Of a stretch of DNA of 62,178 nucleotides, positions 23,066 through 32,562 are shown piece after piece. This DNA is from Ruminococcus sp. GTDB lineage: Bacteria; Bacillota; Clostridia; Oscillospirales; Ruminococcaceae. The number at the start of each line of letters is the position of its first letter. Position 1 is the first letter of the stretch. Location: the NCBI GenBank assembly GCA_017478965.1, contig JAFVCV010000035.1:1-62178 (forward strand), written 5' to 3'. Both the position numbers and the translations under genes were made by a program. The notes beneath the pieces are model-generated. The model saw only the letters and a list, made by a program, of their open reading frames with translations. It ran no database searches and had not been told where the DNA came from.

Positions 23066-24415
23066 TCATTTATCCATATCTTCAGTCTGCAAGGGCAGCT
23101 CAACAGTAAAGCATACGCCGCCTTCAAACAGATTGTCAACGCTGACACTGCCGTCACTGAGGTCCACTATCCTCTTCACCAGAGCCAGGCCCAGGCCGTT
23201 GCCTTCGGTGGCCCGGGAACGGTCCCCCTGGTAGAATTTCTCAAATATCTTCTCCTTCTTGTCCGCCGGGATACTGGGGCCGTTATCTGAGATCTTTACC
23301 ACTATGCCGCTGCCCCCACGGAAAAGCTTGACCTTTATCTCTCCGCCCACTGGGGTGAACTTGATGGCGTTATTTATGATGTTCTGCCAGATCTGCCCCA
23401 TCAGGTCCTCATTCCCCACAAAGAAAATGTCCTCCAGGGAAATGTCAAGATTGATGTCCTTCTTGGACCACTCCGGCTCCAGCATAAGGATTATCTTCCT
23501 TATCTGCTCGTCTATCCTGAATTTTTTCTTCTTGCCGATCGTGGTCTGGTTCTCCAGCTTAGTCAGGTTCAGTATATTTGAGGAAAGCTTCGACAGCCTG
23601 GAAGTTTCGTCAATGATTATCTGGGTATACTCCTTCCTGTCTGCCGGCGTCAGGCTCTCGTCCTGCAAAAGCTTGGCAAAGCCCTGTATGGAAGCCAGGG
23701 GTGTCTTGAACTCGTGCGAAACGTTTGAGATAAAGTCCCCTCTCAGAGTCTCGATACCCGAAAGTTCCTGAGCCATCTTATTGAAGTTCCTTTGCAGGGT
23801 GCCGTACTCATTATCGGCACTCTCCCTTACTCTCACGGAGAAATTGCCCCTTGCGACCTCTGAAGTCGCCCGGCTCAGGTCGTGTATAGGCTGGAGCATG
23901 GTCCTGCCCACAAAGGTGGTGATGACGGTGCCTATAACTATGCTGACCAGCAGAGCGATTATGGTGACGAAATTCACTACCCAGAAAACGTTCTCGCTTG
24001 TGAAAGTGTCCACCATTATGTAGTTATCCGAGATAACGGTTATCATTGTGGCATTAGGCACCACGCCCTCGGTAGAAACAGCATAGCCCAGCTTGTCGAT
24101 CTCCTGCTTATAATACATTACGTCCCGGCTGTCCTTGCTGAGCTCTTTTATCTTGTAATTATTGGTATTCAGAGTATCAAGTATCTCCTTATACTCAAAT
24201 CCCTTAGCCTCCAGCTGCTTGGCAGAGTTGGCAAAGCTCACCAGCTGGTTGGATGCATTCTCCTTCATGATAGGGCTGAAGATCATCAGCAGGGCCGTTA
24301 TGGATATACTTGCCGCCACCAGCATGACCATGAAAAACATGAGCGCAAGCTTGAACTGCATGGTCATCTTCGTATCATGGGAGATATTTTTCTTCATATC
24401 CTTTATATTCTTCAT
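23066..24415 (-). CDS. Sensor histidine kinase (PhoR/ResE-like)
   Basis: A 449-residue membrane sensor kinase. TM1 is about 21-47, an extracytoplasmic sensor about 48-145, TM2 about 146-170, and HAMP about 171-223. The HisKA domain carries H234 in NVSHEFKTPL, and the ATPase domain has the N box (QNIINNAIKFTP), G1 (ISDNGPSIP), the F box (EKIFEKFY) and G2 (NGLGLALVKRIV), so it looks active. It autophosphorylates and passes phosphate to the regulator encoded just upstream (4-bp gap). The signal cannot be read from the sensor; a phosphate-type role is suggested only by Pho-like boxes beyond the regulator gene. Confidence 0.93.
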   Translation of the reverse strand: MKNIKDMKKNISHDTKMTMQFKLALMFFMVMLVAASISITALLMIFSPIMKENASNQLVSFANSAKQLEAKGFEYKEILDTLNTNNYKIKELSKDSRDVMYYKQEIDKLGYAVSTEGVVPNATMITVISDNYIMVDTFTSENVFWVVNFVTIIALLVSIVIGTVITTFVGRTMLQPIHDLSRATSEVARGNFSVRVRESADNEYGTLQRNFNKMAQELSGIETLRGDFISNVSHEFKTPLASIQGFAKLLQDESLTPADRKEYTQIIIDETSRLSKLSSNILNLTKLENQTTIGKKKKFRIDEQIRKIILMLEPEWSKKDINLDISLEDIFFVGNEDLMGQIWQNIINNAIKFTPVGGEIKVKLFRGGSGIVVKISDNGPSIPADKKEKIFEKFYQGDRSRATEGNGLGLALVKRIVDLSDGSVSVDNLFEGGVCFTVELPLQTEDMDK

Positions 24416-24419
24416 GGCA

Positions 24420-25094
24420 CTACTGCTTGACAGCCTTATATCCCAGACCCCTGACGGTCACTATAGAAAAAGCCTCCGCACTGCCATACCGCTCACGCAA
24501 ACGTTTTACATGAACATCCACCGTTCTTTCGTCCACGTCCTTATCCATTCCCCACAGCTCATCGAGGAGCTGTCTGCGGGTAAATATCTTATTCGGATAG
24601 GAGAGGAGCTTGAACAGCAGCTTGAACTCCATCTGCGGTATAGTCTCTCCGGGCTTGCCGTCGAAGGACACTGTCTGGGCATCATAGTCCAGCACACAGT
24701 TGCCAACTGTCATCGTATGCTCGGTAGCCATCTTGGAGCGGCGCAGCAAAGCGCCCACTCGAAGTATCATCTCATTTATATCAATGGGCTTTACCATATA
24801 GTCGTCGGTCCCGGCCATAAAGCCCTCCTGCTTGTCTTCAAAGCTCTCCTTAGCCGTTACCATCAGCACCGGCAGCTGGTAATTTGCCGCACGCAGCTGT
24901 CTGGTCAGCTCATAGCCGTCCATATTCGGCATCATGACGTCAGAGATCACCAGGTCTATATTAGTTTTTTCCAGCACATCAAGAGCGTCCATACCGTCGC
25001 AGGCGGTAAACGGCTGATAGCCATGCTGTTTAAGGGCCGCAGACATAAGGCGGCGCAGGCTGAGATCGTCCTCCACAACTAATATCTGAAACAT
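24420..25094 (-). CDS. OmpR/PhoB-type response regulator
   Basis: A 224-residue two-domain regulator. The receiver domain (1-118) has E8-D9-D10, the phosphorylation site D52 in LVISDVMMP, T80 and K102 in VKPID. The winged-helix DNA-binding domain (128-224) has RRQLLDELWG and RTVDVHVKRLRERYG. Winged-helix regulators of this class bind direct repeats spaced 10-11 bp, which matches the TTCAT repeats in the adjoining gap. It is the partner of the histidine kinase downstream and may also regulate itself. Confidence 0.94.
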   Translation of the reverse strand: MFQILVVEDDLSLRRLMSAALKQHGYQPFTACDGMDALDVLEKTNIDLVISDVMMPNMDGYELTRQLRAANYQLPVLMVTAKESFEDKQEGFMAGTDDYMVKPIDINEMILRVGALLRRSKMATEHTMTVGNCVLDYDAQTVSFDGKPGETIPQMEFKLLFKLLSYPNKIFTRRQLLDELWGMDKDVDERTVDVHVKRLRERYGSAEAFSIVTVRGLGYKAVKQ

Positions 25095-25372
25095 AGGTCT
25101 TCACTCGCTTTCATATTCTTCTTCATTTTCTGCCACAGGCCCGTACCTGACGGGTCCACGGTCTGCACTTGATCCCCCATCATAGAGTTTATCATATTAT
25201 TGTGAAAATTCAATGAAATTCTTATGTGTTTTAATATAATTTTTGTCCTTTAATATAGACGTTTCCGGGTAAAAGAGCCGAAAAAGGCCGAAACAAGGGG
25301 ACTTAAACGTTATACTGCCCTCCGGGTGCGAAAAGTGGCAACTATACGGTCTTTTCAAAAAAGTTCTGGAAA

Positions 25373-25404
25373 TTCATTTTGGGTTCATATTAGGGTGTTA
25401 TATT
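25373..25404 (+). promoter_or_regulatory. Pho-box-like promoter 1 (in the 820-bp gap beside the two-component genes)
   Basis: TTCAT at 25373 and 25384, exactly 11 bp apart, precede TATATT at 25399-25404. The second repeat continues as TTCATATTAGGGTGTTATATT. There is no good -35 apart from the repeats, as in activator-dependent Pho promoters. The gap 25095-25913 holds two such promoters, two structured RNA candidates and two terminators, and no convincing protein gene. Confidence 0.68.
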
Positions 25405-25411
25405 GTATTCA

Positions 25412-25575
25412 ATGAAGAAGAAAGTACTGCGGCGGCCTGATGATAAAGCCTATTGTTCAGTGGACCTTTATTGCTGTGTATCCAGGATGCACAGGTTTCC
25501 CTCATGCGATCCCCCAAGTCGCTTTTCATTCGCTGTTCACTAGGTTTTATCATCAGACTGCGGCGTGACCTTTAA
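25412..25575 (+). ncRNA. Candidate structured RNA 1
   Basis: Downstream of Pho-like promoter 1 the sequence folds into a closed structure. CTGATGATAAAGCCTA (25437-25452) pairs with TAGGTTTTATCATCAG (25541-25556) in a 16-bp stem; then AGTGGAC pairs with GTTCACT; inside are a hairpin CTGTGTATC/GGATGCACAG and a small GCGA/TCGC hairpin. ACTGCGGCG occurs on both sides of the closing stem. No protein frame fits. No Rfam family was recognised, and the 3' end is not defined, because the AT-rich hairpin at 25597-25640 lacks a T-run. Length and function are open. Confidence 0.55.
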
Positions 25576-25596
25576 GGTGACGTTAAGATGGTTAAA

Positions 25597-25640
25597 CGTT
25601 TTCGTTTGTTCAAAAAATATTTTCAAATTTAAACGAAAAC
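25597..25640. repeat. AT-rich inverted repeat between the two RNA candidates
   Basis: GTTTTCGTTT and AAACGAAAAC are perfect 10-bp inverted arms 24 bp apart, with an inner AAAATATTTT palindrome. It may end RNA 1 inefficiently or be a regulator site for promoter 2, which starts 12 bp on. Confidence 0.5.
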
Positions 25641-25651
25641 CTTTAGTCCAG

Positions 25652-25683
25652 TTCATGCAGAGTTCATATTAGTGTGTTATATT
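25652..25683 (+). promoter_or_regulatory. Pho-box-like promoter 2
   Basis: TTCAT at 25652 and 25663 (11 bp apart) precede TATATT at 25678-25683. The distance from the second TTCAT to the -10 is 15 bp, the same as in promoter 1, and GTTCATATTAG-GTGTTATATT is shared except for one base. Both promoters therefore belong to one regulon. Confidence 0.7.
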
Positions 25684-25689
25684 TAGTAC

Positions 25690-25849
25690 AGTTAAGAGAG
25701 AACAGCAAAAAATTGGTGCTTGGCAAAGCTTGCGGATATTTAAAATAGTGCGTAATATCGTTGGTTTTGCCAATTACCAAATCCCTTTCATAATTCTATA
25801 AGAAAATTAATGCTCATTTCATGCCGATAAGAAATGAGTATTAATTTTT
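25690..25849 (+). ncRNA. Candidate small RNA 2
   Basis: A transcript of about 160 nt from Pho-like promoter 2 would fold into three nested stems: TTGG with CCAA, TTGGCAAA (25719-25726) with TTTGCCAA, and GATATT with AATATC. It ends at a strong terminator whose 18-bp stem (25803-25820 with 25831-25848) is followed by TTTTTG. Only a 10-codon frame without a ribosome-binding site is present. Promoter, internal fold and terminator together support a discrete small RNA, possibly a post-transcriptional arm of the adjacent two-component system. Confidence 0.65.
25803..25849 (+). terminator. Terminator of small RNA 2
   Basis: An 18-bp stem with a single G-T wobble, loop ATGCCGATAA, then TTTTTG. Confidence 0.88.
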
Positions 25850-25870
25850 GTCCGGAAAAGACAGCAGTTG

Positions 25871-25903
25871 AAAGTCCGCAGGCACAGGTCTGCGGACTTT
25901 TTT
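25871..25903 (+). terminator. Second terminator before the HAD gene
   Basis: AAAGTCCGCAG and CTGCGGACTTT with T6 on the plus strand. It backs up the previous terminator and lies at the end of the minus-strand HAD gene. Confidence 0.8.
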
Positions 25904-25913
25904 GCGTCTATTT

Positions 25914-26672
25914 CTATCTAAAGGTTTTCGCTTTTTGCATGACTGAGCGCACCACAAACTCCCCAAAGTCACCGCCGCCGTTGAAAACGCTTTTGTGGGC
26001 GGCCTCAGAAAGAGCAGCTAGGTCCGCAGGCATCAGGGACAGGTCAGCAATATCAAGCATCGACAGATCAATAGTGCTGTCCCCGGCAGCAATGAGATAC
26101 AGGTCTTTTTCGCTGCCAAGCAGCCTTTTCAGTGCGCCGCCCTTGGTGAAACAGGGAGGCAGGAAATAGACCTTCCTGCCGGAGATGACCACGTTCAGTC
26201 CCTTTACATCGCTGTACCGTGCCAGGTAGTCCTCCGCTCTTTCACGGTCGGCGGCAGAGATGTAAAGATACATATCGTCTACGATACGGCTGACGTTGAT
26301 ATCCTTCGCTCCCTCCAGTCCGGCTTTCAGCTCCTCCATCAGCGGCATCAGCTCACGTGCTTTCGCAAGGCTGGCAGCCTGCCAGTCCGGGTCGGGCTGA
26401 CCGTCAGTGAGCAATATGCCTCCGTTGGTCGTGATCGCCCTTTTGCAGCTTACAGGCAGCTTTATCCTTCTATATTGTTCCACCGAGCGGGTAGTTACCG
26501 GAATTATCTCTATACTTTCCCCCAGCTCTCTCAGGCCCTGAAAGGCGCCGCAGCTCATGTAGCCCTGGGCTTTGTCTCTCAGCAGCTCCACCAGGATATC
26601 CCCCGGGACCTTATGGGAAAAGCTGTGGATAAGGGTGTTGTCCAGGTCGCAGGCTAAAACTATCTTTTTCAT
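25914..26672 (-). CDS. HAD-family phosphatase of the Ter cluster
   Basis: A 252-residue cytoplasmic haloacid dehalogenase-fold hydrolase. Motif I is ACDLDNTLIHS (nucleophile D13-type DxD), motif II is PVTTRS, and motif III/IV is GDSTIDLSML. A cap domain of the Cof type lies between. It begins 1 nt after the StiP gene stop, so it is translationally coupled. In Ter-linked biosynthetic clusters, HAD phosphatases accompany two phosphoribosyltransferases and are predicted to act on a nucleotide-like product; that pathway is a published prediction and has not been shown here. Confidence 0.9.
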   Translation of the reverse strand: MKKIVLACDLDNTLIHSFSHKVPGDILVELLRDKAQGYMSCGAFQGLRELGESIEIIPVTTRSVEQYRRIKLPVSCKRAITTNGGILLTDGQPDPDWQAASLAKARELMPLMEELKAGLEGAKDINVSRIVDDMYLYISAADRERAEDYLARYSDVKGLNVVISGRKVYFLPPCFTKGGALKRLLGSEKDLYLIAAGDSTIDLSMLDIADLSLMPADLAALSEAAHKSVFNGGGDFGEFVVRSVMQKAKTFR

Positions 26673-26673
26673 A

Positions 26674-27726
26674 TCAGTTATCCGCCAGGTCCTTTATAAG
26701 CCCGCAGGCACGGTAATGTCTGAGAGGGTACTCGATCAGCTCAACGCCCTTTTCCTCAGCCAGGCGGTACAGGTGGCCAAGATGGTCGCTGTCATCAAGA
26801 CTGTGTACCAGCACCTTCCAGGGCAGTCTTCTCAGAAGGACCCTGGTGGCCTCGCCAATGCTGGGCTTTACAAGATTTACGTCCCTTATGCCGAAATCAT
26901 TGCATATGCCCTGAACTTCTTCACAGGCAGAGCCAGAGGAAGTCTTTATGTCCTCTTTTTTGTACTCCTTATAATCAAAGTCCCGCTCTATCCGTTCTAT
27001 AAAGGTATAGGTCAGGTCCTTAGGGATAAGCTCTCTATAGAAGGCCGCACCGTGGAAATCGTTTTCGCCGATGATGTCGCTGCGCAGAAAAGTCCTGCTC
27101 AGGAGTCCCGAAACGGTGGAATTAAGGCAGCTGCTGGCGATAAGGAAATCGTCGTGAGTGCCGCATTTTTCAGAAAGCTGCGCCGGGTCGGAAAGCACCG
27201 CAAGTCCTGCACTTACCCCGGGGAAGTCCTTCATCGCTTCGTCAAGCACCCGGCTGATGGCTCCCTTGCCGGTCCAGCCGTCAACGAACTGAAGGTCCTG
27301 GGGGCTGTGGCGGTCAAGAATATACTTCATGGCATTTTTATCAATGCCCCGTCCCCTTATTATGGAGACAGTATAGTGGGCAGGCTCAAAGCCGTACTTA
27401 GCTTTCAGATAACGTTTAAGGAGTATCCCCACAGGTGTGCCTGCTCTGGCAAGAGACACCAGAACGGTCCTGTCGCCCTTTTCCTCATAGATCTGCTGGG
27501 CAAGCCTTCCCACAGACTCTGCGGTCATAGCGCTGTAAAGCTCCATGGCCTGAAAAAAAGCCTGCATATATTTTTCAGAAGGCTCGTATTCGATGGGCAG
27601 CATTTCGCAGTAGTGCCTGCCGGACTGTATCAGACGCTCCCTTTCCTCGGTGCTCTGGGGCTTGACAAGGCCGGTAATATCTTTCAGGAGGACCGTAACG
27701 TCCTCAGGCTTATAGGTACCAAACAT
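26674..27726 (-). CDS. StiP/PRTase_1-type protein with C-terminal PELOTA domain
   Basis: A 350-residue cytoplasmic protein of the StiP family (also described as a phosphoribosyltransferase-like domain, PRTase_1). The main domain holds LVSLARAGTPVGILLKRYL, SIIRGRGIDKNAM and QFVDGWTGKGAISRVL, which form the PRPP-like loop region; FIASSC near residue 200 carries the conserved Cys. The last 90 residues (VRDVNLVKPSIGEATRVLLRR, then WKVLVHSLDDSDHLGHLYRLAEE) fit a PELOTA-type RNA-binding domain. Its ATG overlaps the stop of the phosphoribosyltransferase gene (TGATG). Enzymatic role uncertain: protease and phosphoribosyltransferase readings both exist for the family. Confidence 0.85.
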   Translation of the reverse strand: MFGTYKPEDVTVLLKDITGLVKPQSTEERERLIQSGRHYCEMLPIEYEPSEKYMQAFFQAMELYSAMTAESVGRLAQQIYEEKGDRTVLVSLARAGTPVGILLKRYLKAKYGFEPAHYTVSIIRGRGIDKNAMKYILDRHSPQDLQFVDGWTGKGAISRVLDEAMKDFPGVSAGLAVLSDPAQLSEKCGTHDDFLIASSCLNSTVSGLLSRTFLRSDIIGENDFHGAAFYRELIPKDLTYTFIERIERDFDYKEYKKEDIKTSSGSACEEVQGICNDFGIRDVNLVKPSIGEATRVLLRRLPWKVLVHSLDDSDHLGHLYRLAEEKGVELIEYPLRHYRACGLIKDLADN

Positions 27727-28910
27727 CAGATCACCACCATTTCTACTCGTTTTCTGACGCCCGCATATTTCAGCACCCCGGCCAGATACTCTGCATTTTT
27801 CATATCAAGTTCCTCAGCGTCAGTGACTATCAGCACCCCGTCATACTTTTTCAGATCATAGACGAAGGTGGTCCTGCCGCCGTCATACAGACTAGGCAGC
27901 TTATAGCCCACGGTGATGGGATATCCCTTTTCGCTGCTTACGCCGATGGGACTGCGGGTGGTGGCATGAAAGCTGACCTTCTTGAAAAGGCCGCTATTCT
28001 CCAGTTTTTCCGCTATTTTTAGCCCGGCGTACATACATTCCTCAGTCCCCAGGACCAGCAGATCAGCCCCAAGTGTGGGCTTTACATACTCCGGTGCGAT
28101 GGCGTAGTCGGGGTAAAAGTCAAACAGTTTATCCAGGTAATCCCCTATCCTCATGCCGGTGCGAAAACCCCTCTGCATTTCCGGGCACTTCCTGCGGCTG
28201 ATGCCGTCAAGATAGACAAAAAAACCATTTCTGCTGCGCTCCCTTTCCTCATAGTCCTCCAGTGCGGTGAACTCCAGCTCCCTGGGTTCATCTATCTCTA
28301 TTGGGGCCACAGACTCGGAATAGTCGATATTTTCAAGTCTCAGCAGACTCTCGCAGATGATGCCTGCGCTGTTCATCAGACCCTCGTTCTCATCACTGAG
28401 CCGGTTTATCACAGAGGCAGCGACTATCTTCTTTCCCTCCAGCCCCGGGAACCTGACTCTGAGCTTTTCCATCATGTTCATCAGAGTCTTGCCGGTAGAG
28501 ATCTCATCGTCCACAAAAATAACGTTCTCTACGCCGCTGAGATTTTCCTCAAAGGGAGCCGCCGCCATTTTCTGCTCGGTAGCATGGCTGTGCTCCTCCT
28601 CAAAAATGATCCACTCCCCTACTCCCTCCAGGTCCTCACGGGTGGTGTGGATATAAAAACAATCCCGGCCAAAGCACTCGGCAACTGCGGCACCCACTGC
28701 GGTAGCAGTTTCGGCAAAGCCCACCACCAGTGTGGGGCCGGGATATTTTTCCCTGAGCTTATCCCCCAGAGTGTGCAGCATGGTCAGGCAGGCCGCAGGA
28801 CTAACAGGCATATGCTTGCCCTGGAGATGGTCAACCAGCAGATAGGTCCTTTTGGTATTATGGTGCCTTTTAGCCAGGCGGAAAAGGTCTTTTTCTTCAA
28901 AATCAGGCAT
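27726..28910 (-). CDS. Phosphoribosyltransferase with C-terminal TRSP domain
   Basis: A 394-residue cytoplasmic protein. The N-terminal 230 residues are a PRTase_2-type phosphoribosyltransferase with VGFAETATAVG and the PRPP-binding motif VIFVDDEISTGKTLMN. The C-terminal part (about 240-394) is the TRSP domain, which contains the FRTGMRIGDY and TRSPIGVSSEKGYPI stretches and the three-residue TRSP signature. Families and their pairing with StiP and a HAD phosphatase are typical of Ter-linked operons, where they are predicted to make a nucleoside-like metabolite. GAAAGGA precedes the ATG. Confidence 0.9.
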   Translation of the reverse strand: MPDFEEKDLFRLAKRHHNTKRTYLLVDHLQGKHMPVSPAACLTMLHTLGDKLREKYPGPTLVVGFAETATAVGAAVAECFGRDCFYIHTTREDLEGVGEWIIFEEEHSHATEQKMAAAPFEENLSGVENVIFVDDEISTGKTLMNMMEKLRVRFPGLEGKKIVAASVINRLSDENEGLMNSAGIICESLLRLENIDYSESVAPIEIDEPRELEFTALEDYEERERSRNGFFVYLDGISRRKCPEMQRGFRTGMRIGDYLDKLFDFYPDYAIAPEYVKPTLGADLLVLGTEECMYAGLKIAEKLENSGLFKKVSFHATTRSPIGVSSEKGYPITVGYKLPSLYDGGRTTFVYDLKKYDGVLIVTDAEELDMKNAEYLAGVLKYAGVRKRVEMVVI

Positions 28911-28997
28911 TCTCGCTATTTCCTTTCAAATCGTTCTCATGGTCCTCTGTCAGCGGGGCGGGGTACCGTCCGGCTGAAACAGGATCACTTTCCGCAT

Positions 28998-29064
28998 ATC
29001 CACAAATTACCCCGACTTACAAGATATTCTTAGTAAGCCGGGGAATAAGTCCGTCTTTGTGGAT
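28998..29064. other. Nested hairpin between the P-type ATPase and phosphoribosyltransferase genes
   Basis: ATCCACAAA (28998-29006) pairs with TTTGTGGAT (29056-29064). Inside it CCCCGACTTAC pairs with GTAAGCCGGGG (29010-29043). No T-run follows on the minus strand, so it is more likely an mRNA processing or stabilising structure, or a weak attenuator splitting the Ter operon. Confidence 0.55.
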
Positions 29065-29071
29065 CAGCGCA

Positions 29072-31807
29072 TTATTTGTCTGCCTTGCCTGCGCCGAAGC
29101 AAGCCTTTCTCAGCATATCCACCGGGATCATGGTGGCGGCCAGAACGATGACTACCAGCCAGCCGGTGATGCCGAAGGGAACGCAGCTGAACATATTTCC
29201 TATCCACTGGAAAGGCGCCAGGGGGATAAGTCCGCAGTTAACTATAACTGCCTGCACAGCAACGATCGCCAGCATAGTCTTGACAAAGCCAGGGTTCAGT
29301 TTCAGTCCCTTAAAGATACCGAAACCGTCGTCTCTGACATTAAATCCGTTGAACAGCGCTGCTAAGATGAACAGCACGAAATAAGCGGTCTTGTGCATAG
29401 CCTCTTCTATAGGCACGTCCTTAAAGGTCTCGGCGTAGCTGTCAAGATAGCTCGATGACAGGTGGCCGGTGCCTGTGAACAGGTCTGCAAAGAAAGGCAC
29501 CTTGAAGAACACAAAGCTTATGATGGTGAGCCATGCTCCCATAATGCCGATCTGTATGGCCATAGGTTTGCTGATTATGCTCTCGTCCCTGCGTCTGGGA
29601 GCCTCGTGCATATACTTCTCCAGCGCCGGCTCATTGCCCAGCATGATGGCGCCCAGGCCGTCCATTACCAGGTTAACGAACAGCAGGTGAGTTACCTTCA
29701 GCGGCTCCTCAACGCCGATGAACGGTCCGATAGCTGAAACTATTACGGCAGCCACGTTTATTACCAGCTGGAACTTACAGAATTTAAGGATATTGTGGTA
29801 GATAGTTCTGCCGTAAAGTATAGCGTCCTTGATGGACTTGAAGTTGTCGTCGATAATGACGATCTCGCCGGCCTCCTTGGCGGCTTCGGTACCGCTGCCC
29901 ATTGCAAAGCCCACGTCTGCCTTTTTGAGGGCGGGGCTGTCGTTTACGCCGTCGCCTGTCATACCGACTACCAGGTTCATCTCCTGGCATATCCTTACCA
30001 TTCTTGACTTATCAGTAGGCAGCGCTCTTGCGATGACCCTGATGTCTCTTACTATCTTCTTCACCTCATCGTCAGACATCTGATTGAGCTCCGCAGATGA
30101 AAGTGCGATATCCTTATCAGACTTGATAAGGCCTGCGTCCTTGGCGATAGCTTTTGCAGTCTCGAGACGGTCGCCGGTTATCATAACTACCTGTATGCCG
30201 GCGTCCTGAACCTCCTTGATGGCCTCCTTGGCCTCGGGTCTTACATCGTCTCTGATGCCTACCAGGCCGATGATGACAACGTCGTCATTTATCTGGTTCT
30301 CCACCATAGGTTTCTCTGAATATCCAAAGCTCAGCACACGCATAGCCTTGTTGGCCAGAGAGTCTATCTTAGCATTGAGAACGTCCATATCAATGGGTCT
30401 TACCTTGCCGTCAGCGTCCAGATAGCTCTTGGCCTTTGCCAGCAGTCTCTCGGGAGCGCCCTTATAGAAGGTCTTGCCCAGGTTGTCGATACGGGACTGG
30501 CTGAACTTATTGGCGGAATTGAAGCCCTGATAGGTAGTGACCTCATATTCCTTATTGTCTTTAAGGGAATTGAAGTCTGCCTCACCGATGAAATGCATAA
30601 GCGCCTGGTCGGTAAAGTTGCCGCCGATGACATTATGATTGCCGTCAAACAGAGACTGTGTGTTCTTGCCGATAGAGATATCCAGCAGTGTCTTTACCTG
30701 CTTATGGTCGCTGAGCTTGTCGTTGGGGATCACATTGCCGTCGGCAGTAAAGAACTCGACGACCTCAAGCTTGCCCTTGGTGATGGTACCGGTCTTATCG
30801 CTGAACAGAACGTTCAGAGAACCGGCAGTCTCGATACCCACGGCTTTACGGACCAGCACGTTGTGGTCCAGCATCTTGCTGGTGTTCTGCATAAGCACCA
30901 GAGAGATCATAAGAGGAAGTCCCTCAGGAACTGCGCAGACAACTATCAGTATGGCGATGGAAACGCCGTCAACTATCTTCTTGATGACCTCAGATGCGCC
31001 CAGTGCGAAGAAGTCGGCAGGTCCGCCTGCCTTGATGATAAAGTAGATGATGTAGACTATAGCGATGACGATAGCGGAAACATAGCCAAAAACTGAGATC
31101 TGGTTAGCCAGCTTAGCCAGCTTTACCTTCAGAGGAGAATCCGGTTCATCTTCGTTCATTTCCTCTGCCATGCGGCCCATCATGGTCTTCAGGCCGACAT
31201 TTCTTACATCGAGTATACCCTCGCCGTCGATACAGACAGCACCTCTGAACAGCGAATGCTCGTCCACAAAGGTATCGCCTGTGATATCAGAGGACATCTC
31301 GAAGCCCTCATCGGCTGCGGTCTTCCTGCACTCCTCGGCCTCGCCGTTAAGAGCGCTGTTGTCCACCTTGATATTGCCGCTTACAAGAACGCCGTCTGCG
31401 GGTATCTTATCGCCGCTTTGCAGCAGTATCTTATCCCCTACGACAACATCGTCAACTTCGATGACGTTAATGTTACCGTCACGTCTTGCCTTACACTTGT
31501 CCTTTTCGGTGCTTGCCTTCAGCTCGCTGTACTTCTGGTCGCTGGCCACATTGGTCTTGGCCGAAACAAATGCAACGATGAGCACGGCAACGATAGTGCC
31601 GATAGGCTCATAGGGCTCCGCCAGCTTGAATATCGCCATGACTATCATCAGCGCAGCGATAGCAAGCAGTATCTTTATCATAGGGTCGCTGAATGTCTCT
31701 AAAAACTCCTTCAGAAATGTTGTAGGCTCAGCCTCGGGTATGGCATTCGAGCCGTTCTTGGCCCGTGATTCCTCAACTTCCTTACTGGTCAATCCGTTAA
31801 GATTCAT
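29072..31807 (-). CDS. Ca2+-type (P2) cation-transporting ATPase
   Basis: A 911-residue P-type ATPase with about ten membrane helices. The phosphorylated Asp is D337 in FSDKTGTITKG; the hinge motif is MTGDGVNDSPALKKAD; the actuator loop is NGEAEE in place of TGES. M4 has the PEGLP motif (VCAVPEGLPLM) and M6 has VNLVMDGLGAIMLG, both of the calcium-pump type. It probably exports Ca2+, perhaps Mn2+. It lies between the terD and phosphoribosyltransferase genes in the same direction; TerD proteins bind Ca2+, so a calcium-linked stress response is a plausible inference. AAGGAG precedes the ATG. Confidence 0.93.
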   Translation of the reverse strand: MNLNGLTSKEVEESRAKNGSNAIPEAEPTTFLKEFLETFSDPMIKILLAIAALMIVMAIFKLAEPYEPIGTIVAVLIVAFVSAKTNVASDQKYSELKASTEKDKCKARRDGNINVIEVDDVVVGDKILLQSGDKIPADGVLVSGNIKVDNSALNGEAEECRKTAADEGFEMSSDITGDTFVDEHSLFRGAVCIDGEGILDVRNVGLKTMMGRMAEEMNEDEPDSPLKVKLAKLANQISVFGYVSAIVIAIVYIIYFIIKAGGPADFFALGASEVIKKIVDGVSIAILIVVCAVPEGLPLMISLVLMQNTSKMLDHNVLVRKAVGIETAGSLNVLFSDKTGTITKGKLEVVEFFTADGNVIPNDKLSDHKQVKTLLDISIGKNTQSLFDGNHNVIGGNFTDQALMHFIGEADFNSLKDNKEYEVTTYQGFNSANKFSQSRIDNLGKTFYKGAPERLLAKAKSYLDADGKVRPIDMDVLNAKIDSLANKAMRVLSFGYSEKPMVENQINDDVVIIGLVGIRDDVRPEAKEAIKEVQDAGIQVVMITGDRLETAKAIAKDAGLIKSDKDIALSSAELNQMSDDEVKKIVRDIRVIARALPTDKSRMVRICQEMNLVVGMTGDGVNDSPALKKADVGFAMGSGTEAAKEAGEIVIIDDNFKSIKDAILYGRTIYHNILKFCKFQLVINVAAVIVSAIGPFIGVEEPLKVTHLLFVNLVMDGLGAIMLGNEPALEKYMHEAPRRRDESIISKPMAIQIGIMGAWLTIISFVFFKVPFFADLFTGTGHLSSSYLDSYAETFKDVPIEEAMHKTAYFVLFILAALFNGFNVRDDGFGIFKGLKLNPGFVKTMLAIVAVQAVIVNCGLIPLAPFQWIGNMFSCVPFGITGWLVVIVLAATMIPVDMLRKACFGAGKADK

Positions 31808-31867
31808 ACACTAAAAACTCCTTAATGGCCGCCTATTTAGCCCGGCGGCGCTTTTATTCAGTCGGAA

Positions 31868-31898
31868 AATAAGGAGAAACAAAATGTTTCTCCTTATT
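31868..31898 (-). terminator. Hairpin between terD and the ATPase
   Basis: AATAAGGAGAAACA and TGTTTCTCCTTATT form a perfect 14-bp stem with a 3-nt loop, followed on the minus strand by TTTTCC. It may lower read-through from the terD genes into the ATPase gene. Confidence 0.65.
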
Positions 31899-31923
31899 AA
31901 GACTATCCAGAAATTTGTACTTA

Positions 31924-32562
31924 TCAGGTATACCTCTTCGCAAGATCCGAGATGCTCGCATCTGTGGTACCCTGGCCTATGGCATTGAACTTCCACTCAT
32001 TGTTATGCCTGTATATCTCCCCGAAGACCATTGCGGTTATGCCCGAGTAGTTCTCCGTCAGATTATACCTGCATATCTCGCTGTTGTTGCGTGCATCAAC
32101 TAGCCTTATATAAGCATTCTGTATCATGCCGAAATGCTGGTTCTTCTGAACTGCGTGATAGATATTGACCGTTACAACGATCTTATCATACTGCTGCGGG
32201 ACCTTGGAGAGTTCCACCACGATCTGCTCGTCGTCACCCTCGCCCTCGCCGGTCAGGTTATCGCCCATGTGGGCCACTGTGCCGGTCTGATGGGTCAGGT
32301 TGCCGTAGTACACGATATCGTTCTTATTGGTCAGCTTGCCGCCTACGAGCAGGAAAGCCGAGGCATCGCAGTCTATGGTGTCGCCGCCTATAGCCTGCAT
32401 ACTGCCGCTGGACCCGCCGCCGAATATTGAAGAAAAAATGCCTTTCTTCTCGGTCTTCTTCGGGGCAGCCTCATCCCAGCCAAGACCTACGATGACCTTT
32501 GAAAGTCCGGCACTCTCCTTAGAAAGGCTGACCTTCTGGCCCTTCTGCAAATTAATTGACAT
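31924..32562 (-). CDS. TerD-family protein with an internal insertion
   Basis: A 212-residue cytoplasmic beta-sandwich protein. Family features are INLQKGQKVSLSKESAGLSK, IVGLGWD, CDASAFLL, YYGNLTH and the Ca2+-binding acidic loop LTGEGEGDDEQI, then WKFNAIGQG. Between GLGWD and the conserved strand it carries an insertion of about 25 residues that is basic and Gly/Ser-rich (KKTEKKGIFSSIFGGGSS), absent from its neighbour. TerD proteins bind Ca2+ and take part in tellurite and general stress resistance. It starts 32 bp after the second terD gene. Confidence 0.93.
   Translation of the reverse strand: MSINLQKGQKVSLSKESAGLSKVIVGLGWDEAAPKKTEKKGIFSSIFGGGSSGSMQAIGGDTIDCDASAFLLVGGKLTNKNDIVYYGNLTHQTGTVAHMGDNLTGEGEGDDEQIVVELSKVPQQYDKIVVTVNIYHAVQKNQHFGMIQNAYIRLVDARNNSEICRYNLTENYSGITAMVFGEIYRHNNEWKFNAIGQGTTDASISDLAKRYT

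Follow-up and report, generated by a model that had tools for sequence, protein, structure and literature searches.

A small-RNA family predicted in Ruminococcus, with direct-repeat promoters and a neighbouring OmpR/PhoB-class two-component system

What is encoded by the two structured segments that lie next to a two-component system in this Ruminococcus genome, what switches them on and how might they act? The window, i.e. the whole stretch of 62,178 nucleotides that was analysed, is contig C50 of a 2.69 Mb genome of 92.8% completeness. A first-pass annotation of its positions 25095 to 25913, made from the letters alone, had proposed two promoters of the same design, each followed by a structured RNA. 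Both promoters were found as described: in each of them two TTCAT repeats are 11 bp apart, TATATT follows at 15 bp counted from the start of the second TTCAT, and the string TTCATATTAG-GTGTTATATT is common to the two. The features of the locus are collected in Table 1.

Table 1. Features of the regulator and small-RNA locus, in window positions.
Feature	Position	Strand	Basis and remarks
Sensor histidine kinase gene (HAMP-HisKA-HATPase)	23066..24415	-	Pfam; downstream of the regulator
OmpR/PhoB-class response regulator gene	24420..25094	-	Pfam Response_reg and Trans_reg_C; divergent from the RNAs
Candidate autoregulatory site: TTCATTGAATTTTCAC then TATGAT	25179..25217, limits approximate	-	Box-like motif
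Promoter 1: TTCAT-N6-TTCAT (TTCAT at 25373 and 25384) then TATATT (at 25399)	25373..25404	+	Motif reading; genome-wide pattern search
R1 domain (RNA 1), closing stem around C-rich segments	25411..25575, ends approximate	+	Folding; covariation in 17 relatives
R1 closing stem	25437-25452 with 25541-25556	+	Corresponding stem covaries in 17 relatives
C-rich stretch TTTCCCTC in the R1 domain	25496..25503	+	Motif reading
C-rich hairpin GCGATCCCCCAAGTCGC, candidate seed in loop	25506..25522	+	Motif search finds this hairpin at R1 copies
Promoter 2: TTCAT-N6-TTCAT (TTCAT at 25652 and 25663) then TATATT (at 25678)	25652..25683	+	Motif reading; genome-wide pattern search
R2 RNA (RNA 2)	25690..25855, start estimated from the -10 box	+	DNA similarity; folding
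R2 closing stem, TTGGTGCTTGGCAAAGC... with ...GTTTTGCCAATTACCAA	25713..25780	+	Folding; corresponding stem covaries in relatives
Single-stranded core TCCCTTTCATAATTC, nearly constant, candidate main seed	25782..25796	+	Alignment of copies
R2 terminator-type hairpin, 19 pairs, U-rich 3' arm	25802..25849	+	Folding; covariation
Second GC-rich terminator-like hairpin, T6 tail	25872..25903	+	Read from sequence

The genome was searched for the complete promoter design with a degenerate pattern, allowing at most 3 mismatches. Three sites were detected in the 2.69 Mb, versus none with the reversed pattern used as control, and all three are located at these RNAs: two in the window and one at a paralogue (C18:8416-8617), the one further copy of this genome, for which no regulator match was found in the surrounding 3.2 kb. 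Seven other genomes searched with 2 mismatches yielded 19 promoter sites, 17 in arrays of such RNAs and two, both in R. bicirculans, outside arrays. A search of 247 genomes of the bacterial family that made no use of the core resulted in 15 sites in 9 genomes of 4 genera, the control giving 0; where it reached arrays beyond the genus, these have the core itself or a sequence close to it. Among the fetched loci, which were mostly retrieved by their core and are not independent, the core follows 70 of 72 promoter sites, the other two being at the regulator gene.

A palindromic AAACGTTT-like motif was also noticed at window positions 25305 and 25594, as well as 5' of the RNA promoters of relatives. 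Of 79 promoter sites, which are related copies, 22 have it in the 120 nt preceding them, versus 0.95% of shuffles, and its position relative to the promoter is often -59 or -36 to -49. Perhaps it is the site of a second regulator. The 7-mer AAACGTT has 11 occurrences on the + strand of the window.

Both segments fold better than their shuffled counterparts, with z-scores of -5.6 for RNA 2, -6.3 for RNA 1 and -9.0 for the whole stretch 25095-25913. The long closing stem attributed to RNA 1 was confirmed. RNA 2 does end in a terminator-type hairpin, whose stem had been given as 18 bp and in fact comprises 19 pairs (25802-25820 with 25831-25849, the last pair being G-U). A simple terminator scan did not report this hairpin, and its single match, the C-rich hairpin at 25506-25522, corresponds to the chance level (1 found, 0.7 expected). 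In the 17 relatives aligned below, the latter hairpin keeps 4 of its 4 pairs, three of which never vary while one shows a two-sided change in 2 sequences. The window's R1 carries C-rich motifs of the kind found 5' of the core in relatives; its R2 does not.

The division into two separate RNAs did not stand, and neither did the hypothesis that they are unrelated: R1 and R2 share transcripts in relatives and appear as parts of one modular family. Six loci (L038, L039, L040, L044, L061 and L073) exhibit an R1 domain and a separate R2 domain under a single recognised promoter, and in a further group of loci the R1 hairpin is placed inside an R2-type closing stem. Because these six loci join R1 and R2 under one promoter and R1 has no evident terminator of its own, RNA 1 most probably extends into RNA 2; the latter has a promoter of its own in addition. 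In four loci (L045:2482-2623, L062, L043 and L057), an extra promoter of the same design is located about 140 bp upstream of a compound RNA; it would drive a short leader lacking a core of its own.

No known family was recognised by the first-pass annotation. The covariance models of Rfam 15 gave 0 matches over the gathering threshold in the whole window, the highest-scoring weak match being SpR14_sRNA (25.6 bits versus a threshold of 50, E 0.38). DNA similarity to the window sequence was detected in 27 of 29 Ruminococcus genomes and in 0 of 71 genomes of other genera. The two genomes missed, G007 and G012, are among the 27 of 29 that contain the core complement within 1 mismatch, a tally of sites that are not all confirmed RNA genes; the two lacking it, G019 and G025, have DNA-similarity matches that stop at contig ends. 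The RNA family is also present in a few other genera of this bacterial family. Core carriers include, by record, Ruminococcus albus 8, KH2T6 and AR67 and R. bicirculans 80/3. The copies are single or organised in arrays of up to five, and a recognised TTCAT-N6-TTCAY-type promoter precedes 70 of 76. R. albus strains encode five R2 copies about 300 bp apart, each with its hairpin and most with their own promoter; some species have one copy only.

These numbers should be read with the sampling in mind. Many RNAs within one genome are recent duplicates, and the named loci and the genome set overlap, so that the counts are not independent events. The searches that do not rest on the core alone are the DNA similarity to the window and the promoter searches of its own genome, the seven others and the 247. 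Two chance core-like matches (in L045 and L065) were dropped before counting. A covariance-model match in G041 (39.7 bits) was discarded as probably due to chance, its locus having no core, and one in G000 is the same hairpin on the opposite strand. Taken together, the comparison of sequences makes it nearly certain that a new small-RNA family extends across the genus Ruminococcus, together with its regulator. To our knowledge, no small-RNA family of this kind has been described in Ruminococcus, and the literature matches listed, in a search covering articles without their supplements, contained none.

The constant part of the family consists of the single-stranded TCCCTTTCATAATTC followed by a terminator-type hairpin. 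Out of 70 distinct core-hairpin stretches, 59 were aligned, 11 near-duplicates being left out by hand. In this alignment, 12 of the 16 consensus hairpin pairs change on both sides; in the core, one copy has A for T and three have an inserted AA, a constancy that is partly built in because the named loci were fetched by the core pattern. The core is slightly more variable in other genera (e.g. TTCCTTTCATAATTC and ATCCTTTCATAATTC). The 5' part is modular and is made either of a closing stem around the hairpin GCGATTCCCCAAGTCGC, or of other hairpins showing CCCCAA or CUUCCCUC, or of almost nothing, the core starting at most 100 nt from the box in 11 transcripts. C-rich motifs were found 5' of the core in 55 of the 70 transcripts, versus 19.9 expected, and CCCCAA in 33 of 70, versus 1.7 expected.

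The comparative folding that the first-pass annotation had called for was carried out on 17 of the 25 long transcripts; the other eight, which belong to the R. albus type or to a type with another inner hairpin, have an inner part that could not be aligned. The stems covary among these full-length relatives: 98.1% of the structure cells are paired, versus 90.5% in shuffles, and two-sided changes affect 65 cells, whereas shuffles give 22.7 and slid controls 2-6. Standard pair types, however, are no more numerous than in shuffles (37 versus 36.9), and other covariation measures are inflated by the kinship of the sequences. Pairing between the purine-rich 5' end and the core was rejected as a general rule, the mean longest stretch over 61 RNAs being 5.46 versus 5.20 in shuffles. 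The mean energy of this pairing is -5.7 versus -5.1 in shuffles and 8 of the 61 RNAs reach the 5% level; a subgroup of the RNAs may pair in this way.

The absence of a credible protein frame was borne out by comparing 60 of the 70 transcripts: the RNAs contain + strand frames of 20-46 codons, none of which is conserved in start and sequence among relatives. Small peptides encoded by the transcripts were therefore considered very improbable. It is true that in many copies a frame crossing the core terminates as ...IPFIIL-stop, that frames over the R1 hairpin contain ...AIPQVA..., among them one in the window that starts at an ATG and has 42 codons, and that some transcripts have frames of 46-56 codons. 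However, throughout these 60 transcripts starts, lengths and N-termini vary between copies and clades, and a ribosome-site-like sequence is missing from most frames.

A structured RNA closed by a terminator-type hairpin could also be a cis-acting leader or attenuator of a downstream gene, and a mechanically called + strand frame of 111 codons (25834-26169) begins within the hairpin. Yet this frame is mostly antisense to the HAD-like gene at 25914-26672 (-), the copies of the family are arranged in tandem, most of them having a separate promoter and hairpin, and it is the upstream regulator that is conserved beside the RNAs, not the window's downstream neighbours. Such a leader is hardly credible here, even less so than a peptide. 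The neighbours 3' of the RNAs occupy 25914-32562 on the opposite strand. They start with this HAD-like phosphatase gene, named from weak matches only, and continue with StiP-PELOTA, PRTase_2-TRSP, a cation P-type ATPase and a TerD protein, the gene of the latter being adjoined by a second TerD-like frame. The set looks like a tellurite-type stress operon.

The regulator of the window belongs to the OmpR/PhoB class, both the receiver and the winged-helix output domain being detected with Pfam, and the kinase gene follows the regulator gene in the loci reaching that far. In 33 of the 41 named stretches a homologue of the regulator is encoded divergently beside the RNAs; the remaining 8 end, by stretch or by contig, on the side where it would lie. 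Five genomes belonging to other genera (G102, G137, G179, G209 and G257) have regulators of 71-80% identity next to their arrays. With one mismatch allowed, the box-like motif is present 5' of 16 of 32 regulator genes, versus 2.9% of shuffles; none was seen among the R. albus loci, and in two relatives the regulator's own promoter matches the full RNA-promoter pattern. The conserved promoter and the fixed divergent neighbourhood agree with the earlier proposal that the adjacent regulator may drive the RNAs, and activation by it is likely. The genome-wide promoter sites, the divergent neighbourhood and the boxes 5' of regulator genes further suggest that this promoter type serves the regulator to control the RNAs and in many cases its own gene, with few other targets; sites with other spacings and repression sites would escape the search.

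The first-pass annotation had linked the promoters to phosphate. Phosphate-starvation RNAs under a PhoB/PhoR pair would account for the 11-bp direct repeats with TTCAT, and PhoB is the best-scoring NCBIfam model for the regulator among the best 25 of 97 matching. However, this score, 187.5 bits, is far below the PhoB cut-off of 296.2, and the regulator is below the cut-off of every model among those 25. PhoU was searched for in this genome, 92.8% complete, and no match exceeded the family cut-off; two below it sit in open frames of about 600 codons. The full-design promoter occurs at no other gene found in this genome, none of its three sites being at a phosphate gene. As the regulator stays below the NCBIfam cut-offs shown and no PhoU exceeds its own, the phosphate reading was dropped, and we hold it to be improbable.

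Because of their anatomy and of the analogy with LhrC and the csRNAs, we lean slightly towards regulator-activated, trans-acting small RNAs that would block translation initiation through C-rich seeds. The phosphorylated regulator would bind the TTCAT-N6-TTCAY boxes just upstream of the -10 box and turn on transcription of the RNAs. These would expose single-stranded C-rich seeds: UCCCUUUCAUAAUUC, which precedes the terminator hairpin and hardly varies, and, further 5' in many transcripts, CCCCAA or motifs of the CCCUC type. The seeds would pair with the ribosome-binding and start regions of mRNAs, whose translation would be blocked, a step that the same analogy renders somewhat probable. Several copies with their own promoters would provide a higher dose and varied 5' seeds.

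The strongest target lead is an excisionase-like gene, named by resemblance, whose leader is complementary to the core variant of its clade. Six such leaders were identified (one each in G006, G009, G012 and G020, two in G016), and in all six the complement spans an AAAGGGA ribosome site, whose end is 8-9 nt from the ATG. The perfect stretch between core and leader is 21 nt in G006, 22 nt in G020 and 19 nt in G009, and the core-complement search gave 19 nt for G012 and G016. The ribosome site is different in near copies of the leader, namely in G010 (19 nt) and before another G012 gene. The excisionase-like genes with a core-complement leader of 19-22 nt are loci L096-L103. Being closely related, these cases probably reflect one event; the other excisionase-family genes fetched do not have this leader, only L176 and L187 showing a related but shorter stretch. 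In the window's own genome, the 20-nt core complement is matched within 3 mismatches by the two RNA genes only, and pairing of the whole core with a stable RNA was rejected, no complement with up to 3 mismatches lying outside the RNA genes.

Complements of the core were also searched as 14-mers in the 29 genomes, resulting in 138 rows, 62 exact and 76 with one mismatch. The exact rows comprise the 6 excisionase leaders and 56 taken as RNA genes without individual reading; one of the 76 is an RNA gene (in G013), leaving 75 sites outside RNA genes. Against these 75, the reversed core gave 23 sites, a scrambled core 11 and its reversed form 83, and a second scramble keeping ATGAAAGGGA gave 48, its reversed form 34. 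Since the controls span 11 to 83, no genome-wide excess can be claimed. Among 40 of the 75 sites inspected by eye, about 23 are at plausible translation starts, as expected from a motif resembling ribosome sites. Near-complements of the core were observed at start regions of what we take to be an HPr-like gene (L193, L212 and L216) and an ECF-transporter-like gene (L188, L204 and L214), in three genomes each.

Besides the absence of an extended target in the window's own genome and of a C-rich motif 5' of its R2 core, one property of the RNAs counts against translation blocking: the 15-nt core varies less than csRNA anti-initiation regions do, and so constant a stretch could be a protein site. 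RsmY and RsmZ titrate RsmA. Here, core and loops might bind an RNA-binding protein that the many copies would titrate, as would befit RNAs that are regulator-linked and multi-copy and share a short single-stranded motif of almost no variation. For the constant nonamer of csRNAs, the authors who described it regard a protein site as an attractive hypothesis (PMC3091779). On the other hand, conservation of unpaired sequence falls on C-rich motifs, which are complementary to ribosome-binding sequences, and the same CCCCAA is presented by different hairpins. Titration of a protein thus seems rather unlikely, although less so than the phosphate reading.

A family that combines an invariable regulator, a single promoter design and a seed of almost constant sequence offers a ready system for learning which signal is sensed in Ruminococcus, a genus whose members include fibre degraders of the rumen and gut, and how regulation proceeds there after transcription. 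We put forward only tentatively, with more doubt than confidence, that this is a two-component system having small RNAs as its only outputs besides itself, a fixed cassette in several genera with one almost constant 15-nt seed, aimed in one clade at the excisionase of an apparent mobile element.

Among known systems, RsmY and RsmZ bind their protein through GGA motifs, whereas the conserved unpaired motifs of the Ruminococcus RNAs are C-rich. In Pseudomonas, the two-component system of GacA, which controls RsmY/RsmZ, is described as acting exclusively through small RNAs (PMC4132741). The csRNAs of streptococci, under CiaRH, are several related RNAs with a direct-repeat promoter of 11-bp period; their anti-initiation sequence is located in unpaired regions, and 16 of 61 predicted members consist of the terminator stem-loop only (PMC3091779 and PMC8186281). 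The Ruminococcus RNAs likewise are several related RNAs under a direct-repeat promoter of 11-bp period and carry unpaired sequence that would be of anti-initiation type. In contrast, the + strand of 25095-25913 lacks the CiaR repeat TTTAAG-N5-TTTAAG. The nonamer [A/C]UCCUAAA[A/C] occurs in 0 of 70 transcripts and nowhere in the window region; it is missing from some csRNAs too (PMC3091779). Conservation inside csRNA anti-initiation regions is described there as 'rather limited' (PMC3091779), whereas the C-rich core of the Ruminococcus RNAs is nearly constant.

The five RNAs LhrC1-5 of Listeria monocytogenes differ hardly at all from one another, are encoded at two loci (lhrC1-4 and lhrC5) and need LisRK (PMC4132741). 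LhrC binds lapB mRNA, whose Shine-Dalgarno sequence it is predicted to cover, and impedes lapB translation; UCCC motifs in loops and between stems are said to characterise Shine-Dalgarno-covering small RNAs of low-GC bacteria (PMC4132741 for both statements). The likeness lies in multi-copy RNAs tied to a two-component system, with UCCC-type seeds in loops and between two stems. Such seeds are present in the window, where R2 has the core only and R1 the others. The Ruminococcus family differs in its organism and in having no Rfam match at gathering, and was compared with LhrC by description only. Rfam holds an LhrC model. The best explanation by analogy is that the Ruminococcus RNAs would work like LhrC and the csRNAs, membership in either not being claimed. 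If true, this would be a third case, besides csRNAs and LhrC, of a two-component system controlling multi-copy C-rich small RNAs.
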